This document shows positions 2,693 through 8,691 of a DNA stretch of 22,093 nucleotides, piece by piece. Source of the DNA: a virus; the IMG/VR virus record IMGVR_UViG_3300037189_007110, positions 1 to 22,093 of that record. One strand, written 5' to 3'. Position numbers and translations under genes: made by a program. The first letter of the stretch is position 1. Each line of letters opens with the position of its first letter. The notes under the pieces are model-generated. The model did no database searches. It saw nothing but the letters and a program-made list of their open reading frames with translations, and was not told the DNA's origin.

Positions 2693-3113
2693 CGTCCACC
2701 AGCGTGTATTCCGTGGCTTGCCATTTCAGTCGTTGTGCGATGCGGAAGAACTCCGGGCTGAACACTGCAACCGGCAGCGACTCCCTCGGAAGGTCATGCG
2801 TCAGGGCGATGCACAAGGCGAGCGCGATGCCGCGCTGCCGATAGTCCTCATGGACGAACCCCTGCGCTTGGATGCGTACTTCGTCACCGACAGCCCACTC
2901 GCTGATCGACGCCCAGCCGATCACCTCCAGATCGTCACCGTCGCGCGACCAGCAGTAGGCGATGCGTGCTGCGTAGTCCTGCTCACGCAGCGAGAGCAGG
3001 GCTACCCTGTCGAATAGTCCCTGCATCTCGCTGCCGTCGTTGCACAGACCGCGACACTGCTCTGCGATGTAGCAGGGCATTTCGATCACGGGCATGGCGT
3101 GGATGTTGAGCAT
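2628..3113 (-). CDS. GNAT-family N-acetyltransferase (161 aa)
   Basis: The ATG at 3113 shares its A with the stop of the zinc-ribbon gene (TGATG). The frame stays open far upstream, but that extension is the antisense-frame shadow of the zinc-ribbon gene. The GNAT acetyl-CoA signature is seen at residues 85-100: GFVHEDYRQRGIALAL, with the R-x-x-G-x-A turn at R92, G95 and A97. The preceding strand (GDEVRIQAQGFV) and following helix (CIALTH) fit GNAT motif A. A WASISEW strand (67-73) fits the central sheet. The substrate cannot be told from sequence. Phage GNATs may modify host proteins, toxins or DNA-linked groups. It lies within the accessory operon and overlaps the HNH gene if that gene uses its longest start. 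Confidence 0.75.
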   Translation of the reverse strand: MLNIHAMPVIEMPCYIAEQCRGLCNDGSEMQGLFDRVALLSLREQDYAARIAYCWSRDGDDLEVIGWASISEWAVGDEVRIQAQGFVHEDYRQRGIALALCIALTHDLPRESLPVAVFSPEFFRIAQRLKWQATEYTLVDDGWIGVGSTDGRHIGTGTDEG

Positions 3114-4105: not shown

Positions 4106-5680
4106 TCAAGAGCGGCCAGCGAGGAACTTCCTGATGTTCCTCGCCAGCCCCTCATCGCGCACGTGGGGCAGGATCGAGCGCAGATACCACGGCGCTTGCT
4201 GGTGAATCTGCTTGAAGCCTCTGCCCTTGAATCGCCCGTATGGCATCCACCAGTAGTCGGTGGTGCGGCGCGTGCCGGGGCGGCCCTCGGCGTCGGCCAT
4301 CGCGTCCCGCTCATACGCCGTTACCGTGCCGTCCACCCTGATATGGTTGCGCTTTGCCATCTCGGCCCGGTCGAGTTCCGCCTGCTGGGCGGCGAGGATG
4401 CGGCGCTCCTCCTCGATCAGCGCGTCCATCTCCACGGCATTGACGGGCTTCCGCATGATGCGGTTGCGCACCCGCTTCATCAGCCGGTCATCGAGCGATG
4501 GCCGGAGGATCGACAGAGCCGTCTTCAGATCGTTGTGGCGGCTGCTGTCCGTGATGTCATACACCTCAAAGCAGGGCTTGTCGGAGGCAGCGATAGCGGC
4601 CAGCCGGGCCTCCACGCTTGAGAGGCCGTCGATCACTCCCGGCAGCGTGCGCGTGCCTCGCCCGAACATCTGGAGGTAGAGACAGGTACTGGCGGTAGGC
4701 CGGGCCATGAAAAGTTTGCGGACGTTTGGTGCATCCCACCCCAGTGTCAGGATGCCCACGTTGATAATGAGTTGCGTCCGACCGGACATGAAGTCCGAGA
4801 GGTGCAGTTGCTGCTCCTCCTGCTCCATCCTGCTGTGGATAATCGACGCGCCAATGTTGCGGCTCATCAGGTCATCACGCACGGCCTCCGCATGCTGGAT
4901 CGAAGACGCAAACACCACGCTGGGCTGGCCCTCCCAGTACTGCTCGATCATCGCCGCCACCCCGGCGACGTTGCTCTTCTGCCGCATCAGCCGGTCGAGG
5001 CGAGCGGCGTCGAAGTCACCGAACGAAGCCTTGAACCGGGTGAGGTCGAGGTCTTGCAGGACGCAAAGGTGCATCTTGCAGCCGACGAGGTAGCCATCGG
5101 CCACTGCCTGCGCGTAGTCATACACGTAGGCGGGCTGGCCGTAATGCTCCTCAAGCGAATGCTCCTTCGATGTCGGCGGCGATGCGGTCATGCCGACCAC
5201 CCTCGCCCCGAAGGATCGGAACTCCGCCAGCATCTGAAGCGCAGCCGGGCTGTAGTTCAGATGCGACTCGTCAACGATGATCAGGCCAACCGTGCCCAAG
5301 AATCGCTGGTAGCGCTTGCGGCTTTGCAGGCTGGCGTAGCAGGCCACGACAACGCCGTCGCCATCGGCCCGCTGCTCCGCCATCTCGATGCCGCATTCCA
5401 CGCCCCGGAGGCGAAGGCGGTCAGCAGACTGACGCACCAACTCCCTCCGGGGCGTGATGAAGAGATCGCAGGCATGGCCCCAATCTCTTTGCAGTAGCAA
5501 GGCGGCGGTTTCGGTTTTCCCGCAGCCGGTCGCCATGTAGAGAGCGGTGCGGTCAGTTGACTGAAGCACCTCAAACACACGGCGGTCTGCTTCCGACTGA
5601 TACGGGCGTGGCTTGTAGGCCGTCGTGGGCGACAGCCTCGTTGTCCACTCCTCATCCATCCAATCCATTGCGCCCTGCAC
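4106..5680 (-). CDS. Superfamily 2 DNA helicase (DEAD/DEAH type, 524 aa)
   Basis: All the expected SF2 motifs are present in order: a Q-like PRPYQ (residues 25-29), Walker A MATGCGKT (49-56), ITPRRELV (motif Ia, 75-82), Walker B VDESH (136-140), TASPP (165-169), the second RecA-like domain with SVVFASS (254-260), VGILTLGWDAP (308-318) and arginine-finger motif QMFGRGTR (337-344). The order and DESH box resemble phage helicases of the UvsW/SSL2 group, which act on branched DNA. The C-terminal 150 residues contain an EERR-rich helix and an aromatic WWMPYGRFKGRGF patch, probably an accessory domain. The start is taken as GTG at 5680 because GGAGG lies about 9 bases upstream. ATGs at 5668 and 5659 are alternatives. 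It fits a replication/recombination operon. Confidence 0.92.
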   Translation of the reverse strand: MQGAMDWMDEEWTTRLSPTTAYKPRPYQSEADRRVFEVLQSTDRTALYMATGCGKTETAALLLQRDWGHACDLFITPRRELVRQSADRLRLRGVECGIEMAEQRADGDGVVVACYASLQSRKRYQRFLGTVGLIIVDESHLNYSPAALQMLAEFRSFGARVVGMTASPPTSKEHSLEEHYGQPAYVYDYAQAVADGYLVGCKMHLCVLQDLDLTRFKASFGDFDAARLDRLMRQKSNVAGVAAMIEQYWEGQPSVVFASSIQHAEAVRDDLMSRNIGASIIHSRMEQEEQQLHLSDFMSGRTQLIINVGILTLGWDAPNVRKLFMARPTASTCLYLQMFGRGTRTLPGVIDGLSSVEARLAAIAASDKPCFEVYDITDSSRHNDLKTALSILRPSLDDRLMKRVRNRIMRKPVNAVEMDALIEEERRILAAQQAELDRAEMAKRNHIRVDGTVTAYERDAMADAEGRPGTRRTTDYWWMPYGRFKGRGFKQIHQQAPWYLRSILPHVRDEGLARNIRKFLAGRS

Positions 5681-5956: not shown

Positions 5957-6221
5957 GTTCAGTCTCCTTCACGGTGACACTGCCGGTAACGAGCGAACCC
6001 AGCAGCGAATCGAACGAGCCAAGGGTCATCCCACGCAGGATGTCCAACTCAGCAAGCACAGCACGCGCGTCTTTCTTCAGCGCCAACAGCGCTGCCGTGA
6101 CGAGTTCGTATGCGTCAGGCTCCAGTTCCCACTGCCCGCCTTCGCTTGCGATCCTCCACGCCGCCTCCGCCGCCAGCAGCATCCTCGCCTTGATCTCCAA
6201 CAGTTCCTTCGTTTCCAGCAT
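5763..6221 (-). CDS. Hypothetical protein (152 aa) with a doubtful C-terminal half
   Basis: The ATG at 6221 follows an AAGGAG SD by about 7 bases. Residues 1-70 form a plausible helical domain (MLETKELLEIKARMLLAAEA, ELVTAALLALKKDARAVLAE). From about residue 85 on, the sequence is glycine-, proline- and arginine-rich and overlaps the 81-residue gene in another frame. It also overlaps the end of the ERF gene by 107 bases. Its position directly behind the annealing protein suggests an accessory recombination role, but nothing in the sequence proves one. Confidence 0.5.
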   Translation of the reverse strand: MLETKELLEIKARMLLAAEAAWRIASEGGQWELEPDAYELVTAALLALKKDARAVLAELDILRGMTLGSFDSLLGSLVTGSVTVKETEHGRSGDVDRVQQEASVGGGGSEPDDHTATGGAVRPDGADGPKVKRSRPRRNRRSNPADQERVES

Positions 6222-6864
6222 TGGTCTTCTCCTTCAGGTGGGTGCTTCGCTTCTGACACAGGGACTCGATCCGCTCGACTGCGTCCGGGGGCATGGCCCC
6301 AGACTGCACACGCTGCTTCGCCACGTTTACGTACCGCGCCAACGTGGCGTCATCGGTGGCAAGCGCGACTGCTGCCTCCGCGATTTCCATGTTGGTCTTC
6401 CACTTCTTCTGGGTTGCCTCGTCCACGCCGGAGTGTTCCGCCACGCCCTGCGCGTCGGTGTCCTCCTCGGTGGAGATGGACAGCAGCCCCTCGATGGCCG
6501 TGCGACAGAGCAACGTCATCGCCGCCTTCCGCTCCTGCACATCAGCGAGGTGCGGGATGCGAAGCGTCGAGGTGATGTACTCGCCCGTCTTGTGGCGGAG
6601 CATCGTCACGACGTAGTCGCCGCCCTCGTTCTCGCCATACAGGTGGTTCATCCAGATGCCGTGCTTGGCGAGAGCAGGCATCACCGCACGCCGGATCGCA
6701 GAGATCGAGGCGTAGCGGTAGGAGTGACCGTCGCGGCTTCCCTTGGAATCGAGAGGCACCGGAGGGAACTCGGGATGGGCGGAGCAAAGCGCCTCCACCA
6801 GAGCGCCCGTGGTGCTGCTCTCCTCGCGAAGAACAGACACGGCGATGTTTCCAATCCTTGGCAT
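6115..6864 (-). CDS. erf: ERF-family single-strand annealing protein (249 aa)
   Basis: The ATG at 6864 shares a base with the exonuclease stop (TGATG) and has a GGAGAGG SD 4 bases upstream. The ERF pattern is readable: SYRYASISAIRRAVMPALAKHGI (residues 48-70), DYVVTMLRHKTGEYITSTL (83-101), then VQERKAAMTLLCRTAIEGLLSI (109-130) and the acidic EEDTDA (133-138), which correspond to the family's 'Y.yasl..v...v.p.L..hGl', 'T.L.H.sGE', 'Q..GsaiTYarRYal..llGi' and 'eeDdD'. ERF proteins coat and anneal complementary single strands. The C-terminal 40 residues are glycine- and basic-rich and overlap the next ORF. With the upstream exonuclease it forms a two-part recombinase like Red or RecET. Confidence 0.88.
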   Translation of the reverse strand: MPRIGNIAVSVLREESSTTGALVEALCSAHPEFPPVPLDSKGSRDGHSYRYASISAIRRAVMPALAKHGIWMNHLYGENEGGDYVVTMLRHKTGEYITSTLRIPHLADVQERKAAMTLLCRTAIEGLLSISTEEDTDAQGVAEHSGVDEATQKKWKTNMEIAEAAVALATDDATLARYVNVAKQRVQSGAMPPDAVERIESLCQKRSTHLKEKTNAGNEGTVGDQGEDAAGGGGGVEDRKRRRAVGTGA

Positions 6865-7757
6865 CAGACCTCTCCTTTCAGGGCATAACTCGGGAAATAA
6901 ATCTCCTCCACTCCACGGGCATCGAGGCGATGCCAGCAGTCCAAGTCGAGTCGCATCTGCAACTCATCCAGCAGGCGCAGACACTCGCTGCGACCGTGGT
7001 CGATCACGCGCTGCGGCAGCGGGCCAACAACGCTCTCATAGGGCCACACCGTCGAGGTGACGATGAAGACCATGCGATGGGCAGGCCAGCCTGCGGCAAG
7101 GCCAGCCGACTCATACATCGCGCTCTGCAAGTGGTAGCCAAACTTTAGCGCGCTGCGCCACCACTCACGTGCCGGGTTCTCGTCCCGCGTTGTCTTCCAA
7201 TCGAAGAAGTAGTCGGGCGTGGCGCCGTCCACGCGGCAACGACAGGCGTGGCCGTTCCACTGCCACTTGATGTTGAACTCCGCATCGATGGCCCGCTCGA
7301 TGATCGTGGTGACATCAGAGTTGGCGAGCAACGCCCGTGTCTGATCACGCAACTTTTTGTAGTCAGCCGGGCATACCGGGATGCGCGCCGGATCAAGGTT
7401 CGCCTTCCAATCGGCGGCCTTGGCGGAGAACGCTCCGGCAGCAGTTGCCAGAGTGTCCGGGCAGACTTCGACGCGGGGCCAGAACTCCTTTTCCCCCAAC
7501 TCCCCCCACGAATGAAGGAGCGAGCCGTAGTCGAGGGCATCACTCGACCGGGGCGGGGCGGCCTTGGCGACTTGCCGCCAGTAGTATGCCAGCGGTGATT
7601 CGCGCAGCAGTTTCAGGTTGCTGCACGACACCTCCGGCCAGCCGTGATAGGACGCGGCTGGGGTGTGGCAAATCGAAACGGACGGGTCTACTAGCAGCGG
7701 CGAGACTTGAACTCGCGACCCCCGGCTTATGAAGCCGGTGGCCGGAACAATCGTCAT
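6864..7757 (-). CDS. RecE-like PD-(D/E)XK exonuclease with attP-encoded N terminus (297 aa)
   Basis: The core matches RecE/DUF3799-type nucleases: YHGWPEVSCSNLKLLRESPL (residues 37-56), GSLLH (78-82), CRCRVDGATPDYFFDWKTT (172-190, with D177, D186 and K188 as the D...DxK site) and QSAMY (211-215), the QxxxY motif of RecB-type exonucleases. It should resect double-strand ends to give strands for the ERF protein. The ATG at 7757 has a near-ideal SD (GGAGG at 7769-7765, 7-base spacing). Codons 7-22 lie in a tRNA-derived sequence, so about the first 30 residues extend beyond the usual family start and are probably not part of the fold. A GTG just before SCSNL is the only obvious internal start, and its GGAG abuts it. 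The gene heads the recombination operon. Confidence 0.88.
   Translation of the reverse strand: MTIVPATGFISRGSRVQVSPLLVDPSVSICHTPAASYHGWPEVSCSNLKLLRESPLAYYWRQVAKAAPPRSSDALDYGSLLHSWGELGEKEFWPRVEVCPDTLATAAGAFSAKAADWKANLDPARIPVCPADYKKLRDQTRALLANSDVTTIIERAIDAEFNIKWQWNGHACRCRVDGATPDYFFDWKTTRDENPAREWWRSALKFGYHLQSAMYESAGLAAGWPAHRMVFIVTSTVWPYESVVGPLPQRVIDHGRSECLRLLDELQMRLDLDCWHRLDARGVEEIYFPSYALKGEV
7692..7740 (-). other. attP: Putative attP core: 3' half of a tRNA (anticodon CAU)
   Basis: Read on the minus strand, this segment has an anticodon arm CCGGC-TTCATAA-GCCGG (7738-7722) with anticodon CAU, a five-base variable loop GGGTC, a T arm GCGAG-TTCAAGT-CTCGC (7716-7700), the 3' acceptor strand CGCTGCT (7699-7693) and a discriminator A (7692). 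The matching 5' acceptor AGCAGCG and any D arm are missing upstream, so this is not a working tRNA gene. A tRNA 3' half beside a tyrosine integrase is the standard form of an attachment core, because integration restores the host tRNA. CAU could mean elongator Met, initiator or Ile2. The anticodon stem lacks the initiator GGG/CCC run. Exact core limits need the host sequence. Confidence 0.85.
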
Positions 7758-7842
7758 GTCTGAACCTCCGTATCTGGGGGGCTAGACCAACCTTTTGATT
7801 TGCCAGTTCTCAGGGAGGGTGCATTTTTGGAAACAATCCCCC
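7758..7842. promoter_or_regulatory. Divergent control region between integrase and recombination operon
   Basis: About 85 bases separate the minus-strand exonuclease start from the likely integrase ATG. The only clear signal is the exonuclease SD (GGAGG at 7769-7765, minus strand). The part nearer the integrase is relatively AT-rich (around 7790-7840), as expected for promoters and integrase arm sites. A GGGAGG at 7813-7818 lies too close to the in-frame GTG at 7819 and too far from the ATG at 7843 to settle the integrase start. No convincing -35/-10 pair is seen on either strand. Confidence 0.4.
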
Positions 7843-8691
7843 ATGTTGAGTACCACTGGCATTATGCGGTTGGCCGAACTCCTTGGCCTGTATTGCGGTA
7901 GCCGCGAATGCAGCGACCGCTATTGCGAATCCCTCCGCCGCACCGTGCGGCAAGCCGAGGCGGCTGGCGTCGGCACCGTGGCCGACCTCAAGCCAGCAGT
8001 AGTGAACAGATTTCTCTCTAGCCTGTCAACGTCAGCCGTGACCCGGCAAAATGTGCGGCGAGAACTCCTGACGTTATGGAAGTGGGCATTTGAAGAAGGG
8101 CTGACCGAGACGCCGCCGATGCGGGTGATGAGGATCAAGGCTGCTGCCAGACCTGTTGAGGCGTGGTCGCTGGCCGATCTGCGGCTGATGCTGACGCGAG
8201 CAGAGGCAGACCAGACGCGCATCGGAGGGCATGCCAACCGCAGGGTATGCGAGTGGTTTCCGGGGTGGATCGTGATCGCGTATGACACCGCAATGCGGTT
8301 CAGCGATGTGCTTGAACTGCGTGACAGCAACCTTCGCAACGGGTGCATCGCAAGCACGGCACACAAGACAGGCAAGGCGTTGGTCAGGCCACTGTCCGGG
8401 CATGGGCAGGAATGGGCGCAGCGCTTGATCAGTGAATCACCCGATGGCTCGCTGTTCACGTGGTTCCTGACGCGGCGCCGCGCCTTGATGTCGATCCGGG
8501 CGTTTCTCGACAGGCAAAAGATACGCGGCTCCAGCAAGTACCTGCGCCGCGCTGCTGCGACCTACATCGAGATGCGTAGTCCGGGCGAATCGTGGCGCTA
8601 CCTACAGCACTCCGTACCAACTTTGGTACAGCGTCACTACGTGGATGCCTCGCTCTGCCCCGTGCCAGACGGGCCGCCGCCGATCAGGTGA
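7843..8691 (+). CDS. int: Tyrosine-family site-specific integrase (282 aa)
   Basis: This is the only plus-strand gene. An N-terminal SAM-like core-binding domain (about residues 8-90, helical, with LLTLWKWAFEEGLTE) is followed by the catalytic domain: Arg I in YDTAMRFSDVLELR, a beta-hairpin Lys in AHKTGKALVRPL, box II SSKYLRRAAATYIE, His in LQHSVPTLV and the nucleophile Tyr in QRHYVD near the C terminus. In box II the first residue of HxxR is Lys (K-Y-L-R). The frame opens at a TTG at 7795. GTG 7819 and ATG 7843 are alternatives, none with an ideal SD. I chose 7843 because it begins just before the core-binding domain. It sits beside a tRNA-derived core and should drive integration there. Its last 55 bases overlap the opposing kinase-like gene. 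Confidence 0.93.
   Translation: MLSTTGIMRLAELLGLYCGSRECSDRYCESLRRTVRQAEAAGVGTVADLKPAVVNRFLSSLSTSAVTRQNVRRELLTLWKWAFEEGLTETPPMRVMRIKAAARPVEAWSLADLRLMLTRAEADQTRIGGHANRRVCEWFPGWIVIAYDTAMRFSDVLELRDSNLRNGCIASTAHKTGKALVRPLSGHGQEWAQRLISESPDGSLFTWFLTRRRALMSIRAFLDRQKIRGSSKYLRRAAATYIEMRSPGESWRYLQHSVPTLVQRHYVDASLCPVPDGPPPIR

Follow-up and report, generated by a model that had tools for sequence, protein, structure and literature searches.

The attP core of the phage represented by the 22,093-nucleotide window (the whole stretch of viral DNA analysed, IMG/VR record IMGVR_UViG_3300037189_007110) is a tRNA 3' half that lies in-frame within the start of a RecE/ExoVIII-like exonuclease gene, and this position is broadly conserved among related phages. 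With attP placed there, the phage should split its own exonuclease gene when it integrates into a host tRNA gene, and the sequences make such an interruption very likely. The split is probably a selected, excision-dependent switch through which the exonuclease would be off in the prophage. An integration-coupled switch had been proposed in the preliminary description of this DNA; its anatomy and the consequence of that anatomy are well supported, whereas promoter position, silence in the lysogen and selection for the switch are what we infer.

The tRNA-derived core and the exonuclease start

The exonuclease gene extends over positions 6864..7757 of the minus strand and encodes 297 residues. 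PF12684 and PF12705 are matched above cut-off together with phrog_412, indicating a PD-(D/E)XK domain, and the DxKTT motif is conserved. Homology to DUF3799/PDDEXK and PHROG exonuclease VIII proteins starts at residue 33-44. The ATG at 7755..7757, on the integrase side of the core, is the sole start codon of the frame 5' of the core and is preceded by the Shine-Dalgarno (SD) sequence GGAGG at 7765..7769 (minus strand), an equally good match to which occurs at 1.5% of random positions. Residues 1-6 are encoded ahead of the core and residues 7-23 or so by the core itself, and the conserved domain begins at about residue 44. The window coordinates thus bear out the original placement of the core within the exonuclease start, with SD and ATG across the core from the gene body.

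The core itself is a 47-bp tRNA-Met 3' half with anticodon CAT at 7692..7738 of the minus strand, where its sequence is CCGGCTTCATAAGCCGGGGGTCGCGAGTTCAAGTCTCGCCGCTGCTA, read in the exonuclease frame as GFISRGSRVQVSPLL. Its onset lies 19 nt past the first base of the ATG and it spans codons 7-23, comprising the anticodon arm with CAT, the variable loop, the T arm, the acceptor strand and a final A. The Rfam tRNA model matches 7692-7761 (minus strand) with 24.8 bits and E = 0.004, under the gathering score of 29; in this alignment the anticodon arm, T arm and acceptor 3' strand are intact and the 5' acceptor strand is mostly unpaired. ARAGORN found no complete tRNA in the window. Exonuclease products translated through the core would contain peptides such as RLHKPGVAGSSPAAA or GFISRVSPVQVRPPL.

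A 13-nt inverted repeat flanks the core, with its left arm TGGCAAATCGAAA at 7666..7678, inside the exonuclease gene, and its right arm TTTTGATTTGCCA at 7793..7805. The inner part of this repeat recurs in L031, and L026, L030 and L034 carry a different repeat, TGACGCAA / TTGCGTCA, in its stead. Both types are possible arm-type sites; as such repeats are clearly in excess over shuffled sequences in few phages only, they were not used as evidence.

The tyrosine integrase is encoded divergently at 7843..8691 of the plus strand, its start being uncertain within 7819-7864. It matches phrog_1, and the invariant R, K, R, H and Y columns of the integrase alignment identify a tyrosine recombinase. The promoters of both genes presumably lie in the intergenic region, 7758..7842; a scan of this region in the window for sigma-70 promoters and terminators found none. 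Behind the exonuclease on the minus strand follow an ERF-family single-strand annealing protein (6115..6864), whose ATG overlaps the exonuclease stop (TGATG), and, in the same block, a DEAD/ResIII helicase (4106..5680). Domain and PHROG matches for both agree with the recombination operon originally described here. The overlap of exonuclease stop and ERF start codons is found in many of the phages.

In 5 of 9 contigs the exonuclease is followed, at a distance of about 9-10 kb and on its own strand, by a putative gene with sigma-70 region 2. The putative sigma factor of G001 (IMGVR_UViG_3300032305_001455), a weak Sigma70_r2 match, lies at 45149-45664, some 9 kb past the exonuclease and again on its strand, and similar genes occur in G010, G015, G016 and G018.

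Core-bearing and core-less relatives

Viral contigs were scanned for the tRNA anticodon arm CCGGCTTCATAAGCCGG alone, a scan that was not exhaustive, since it missed L049. The arm was found at 29 loci, in 27 of which the tRNA 3' half continues, and 26 of these 27 tRNA-like cores sit in the start of the same exonuclease gene, a position that is therefore not due to chance. L016 is counted among the 26, its exonuclease ORF running past the locus end. Wherever the contig reaches far enough, ERF lies behind and the integrase in front. The exception, L024, has a tRNA-Met 3' half at about 3134 adjoined by neither exonuclease nor integrase, and its core is possibly a remnant or part of a different element. 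ARAGORN reported complete tRNAs in L019, L025, L030 and L036, which were rejected because their 5' halves resemble phage sequence. Removal of copies reduced the 26 loci to 19 phages, the window's phage included.

Two further scans with exonuclease profiles, independent of the core, added four phages with the core in the ORF (L049, L055, L126 and L127). L049 and L055 carry a tRNA-Met core, with a changed anticodon stem in L055, and at the same place L126 and L127 have a tRNA-Gly(CCC) 3' half. This brings to 23 the distinct phages whose core is within the exonuclease ORF, 21 with tRNA-Met, in two reading frames, and 2 with tRNA-Gly(CCC). The question raised at the outset, whether attP always lies within this ORF in related phages, is answered in the affirmative for every exonuclease relative with a recognisable core, across both tRNA identities. 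All core-bearing contigs tested were positive with the integrase profile. In L121, which has an integrase, no tRNA core could be recognised between this gene and the exonuclease (2835-3000); the L121 attP may target something else or sit elsewhere. The distant integrases of L009-L011, which occur in other gene contexts and have no neighbouring exonuclease, were set aside.

Other exonuclease relatives are core-less (L052, L058-L061, L122, L124 and L125), and in them the exonuclease begins immediately before the domain. The integrase profile gave no match in core-less L052, L058, L059, L122, L124 and L125, contigs that may be incomplete. The five integrase-less related contigs (L052, L058/L059, L122, L124, L125) amount to about three lineages. 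In a maximum-likelihood tree of the exonuclease domains the core-bearing state changes three times, each change being forced by well-supported branches, so that at two or more points core and integrase change in step. L052 groups with core-bearing L049 as a pair, and L122, L124 and L125 are nested within the second subgroup; from this nesting of core-less among core-bearing forms it follows that the integrase and the core-containing leader were gained or lost jointly. In L122 and L124 a promoter-like TTGACT - 17/18 nt - TATAAC lies about 130-160 nt before the exonuclease domain.

Searches for the integrated state covered several collections. An exact search of bacterial genomes with the window's tRNA core returned no match, a two-sequence integrase profile found no confirmed relative in bacterial genomes, and a BLAST search of plasmids and phages with the core gave only weak tRNA matches. 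No useful close integrase relatives were found among isolated phages or plasmids. As these searches revealed neither an integrated copy nor a host genome or attB, the attL considered below is hypothetical. An early guess at a host in the Planctomycetota is unproven.

Start codons and the predicted effect of integration

Core and domain are spaced by 47-89 nt, and in 19 of the 23 phages this stretch contains no in-frame ATG, GTG or TTG. Start codons make up 4 of 453 core-domain codons, whereas the exonuclease body has 264 in 5,897 (Fisher p = 1.6e-5) and the part preceding the core 27 in 664 (p = 7e-4), and GTG accounts for 1 of 26 core-domain valine codons versus 114 of 355 in the body (p = 8e-4); these p-values are indicative only, because the phages are related and were treated as independent. 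Read in its other two frames, this stretch has 13 and 25 start codons in 430. The four in-frame exceptions, one GTG and three TTG, have no convincing ribosome site. Given this depletion, integration should part the start and ribosome site from the exonuclease-ERF-helicase block.

In tRNA-targeted integration the phage core rebuilds the 3' half of the host tRNA. In the free or circular genome, translation would run from the ATG upstream of the core through the tRNA half to give the full exonuclease. Integration would leave the SD, the ATG and the DNA preceding them beside the integrase at one prophage end, and the exonuclease body with the genes behind it would come to lie at the other, behind the rebuilt host tRNA and lacking a usable start codon. 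Expression of the lytic recombination block would in this way be tied to excision, off in the prophage and on once attP is restored. Because of the overlapping stop and start codons, translation of ERF is likely to be lowered too in the integrated state.

The arrangement could instead reflect compact packing, the exonuclease start merely overlapping attP between two divergent genes and a separate repressor silencing the operon, a reading that we consider rather unlikely. Phage genomes are compact, and the tRNA-Met half is open in two of the three frames, so that an overlap of core and exonuclease is easily tolerated. In the second subgroup the integrase and exonuclease ATGs overlap on one CATG, and such a shared CATG is seen in L019, L020, L022, L023, L033, L035, L038, L039, L041, L055, L126 and L127. 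The split would be redundant if a repressor kept the operon silent in any case. Against this, an SD and ATG in the 47-89 nt gap would be easy to gain, yet in-frame starts are depleted there; the core position is never relaxed across the 23 phages; and integrase-less relatives do start the exonuclease directly before the domain. Moreover, a search of nine contigs revealed no HTH_3 or S24 repressor, though other repressor types are possible.

From the shared CATG, the distance to the core varies and the exonuclease frame is always kept; of the tRNA-Met half two frames are in use and the third, with TAA, never is. Both observations favour the excision-dependent switch. At several of these junctions the SD-like sequence of each gene lies within the coding sequence of the other. 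L025 has a similar adjoining arrangement with GTG as the integrase start. MDVSP-like N-termini in one subgroup were rejected as protein conservation, since they coincide with the integrase SD on the opposite strand. Short inverted repeats occur just past the exonuclease ATG in L021, L026, L027, L030, L034, L038, L039 and others, and also in integrase-less L122, L124 and L125. Their arms vary between phages with complementarity kept (e.g. GTCAGGGT..ACCCTGAC and CTCTCCTGC..GCAGGGGAG), and an operator or an mRNA hairpin is a possible function.

A reversed switch, in which the host tRNA promoter would drive the exonuclease body in the lysogen, with a start in or upstream of the rebuilt tRNA, is very improbable. 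When attL was simulated with generic tRNA 5' halves containing TAGAGC, an in-frame TAG fell just before the core in the window's frame. The commoner frame (RLHKPG) may stay open into the tRNA 5' half, where some D-loops give TTG or CTG, so that a weak, unorthodox lysogen start is conceivable; no ribosome site was present there. Furthermore, tRNA processing would cut a transcript running through the rebuilt tRNA, which counts against this reading.

That the upstream start is an annotation artefact, with the true start downstream of the core and an accidental frame through the tRNA half, a concern already voiced in the preliminary description, is extremely improbable: homology with other exonucleases does begin only at residue 33-44, but 19 of 23 phages have no in-frame core-domain start, the starts in the other four have no convincing ribosome site, about ten phages have a good SD at the upstream start (the window, L018, L021-L023, L026, L030, L031, L033-L035) and the frame is kept over many upstream lengths. 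Upstream starts with no SD are those of L012, L020, L055, L126 and L127.

The excision-dependent switch on the exonuclease is thus retained as the preferred reading. A wider version, in which integration would be the main lysogeny switch of the phage family and excision alone would restart lytic development, is doubtful. The block then severed from its promoter and first ribosome site would span some 10 kb, with the exonuclease at one end and the putative sigma factor at the other. The same-strand position of the sigma gene (5 of 9 contigs) and the lack of any recognisable CI-type repressor (HTH_3 or S24, nine contigs searched) would be compatible with integration as the principal switch.

Implications and comparison with known systems

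If the excision-dependent reading is true, the target of an integration-coupled switch can be a lytic recombination operon instead of a repressor, as in this uncultured phage family; the switch can persist through a change of target tRNA and would couple excision directly to recombination functions with no repressor needed for these genes. A tRNA half would also be tolerable as the translated leader of an enzyme, and a tRNA 3' half within the start of a phage ORF would offer a simple genomic signature for seeking more switches of this kind.

The open-access literature searched yielded no phage that uses attP to split the 5' end of one of its own recombination genes. An integration-dependent switch with attP in a lytic recombination gene would appear to be new, the known ones using the repressor gene. 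In lambda sib retroregulation attP parts a 3' regulatory element from int, and expression differs between the integrated and circular states. The present arrangement likewise has attP between a regulatory element and a phage gene; in contrast to lambda, the start codon and ribosome site are parted from the exonuclease. As in tRNA-targeting tyrosine integrase phages generally, the core lies next to int and matches the tRNA model in the parts of a tRNA 3' half. To our knowledge, the core of such phages usually lies outside protein-coding genes, whereas here it is in-frame within an enzyme gene.

In tRNA-dependent lysogeny, integration into a host tRNA gene similarly has a functional consequence beyond insertion, but the target tRNA is left unrestored and a tRNA of the phage makes up for it (PMC10865867), whereas the long core described here should rebuild the tRNA. 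Helper-embedded PICIs interrupt a late gene of the helper prophage and delay its expression until excision (PMC10111431). A phage gene is predicted to be interrupted until excision here as well; in contrast to a satellite in its helper's late gene, the phage would split its own early-type gene by its own integration. The parallel drawn in the preliminary description, to mycobacteriophage switches with a recombination gene in place of the repressor, is upheld by the presence of attP in a phage ORF in 23 phages and by the identity of that gene as the exonuclease. In mycobacteriophage BPs and its relatives attP lies in the repressor gene, and integration shortens the repressor C-terminus to give a stable, active form (PMC4557955). 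In both systems attP is inside a phage coding sequence; integration itself alters the gene product in BPs and is predicted to do so here. What is split here, in contrast to BPs, is no immunity repressor but a lytic recombination gene, that of the DUF3799/ExoVIII-like exonuclease, and attP is at the 5' end of the gene, where integration is predicted to remove the start codon rather than to shorten the C-terminus.
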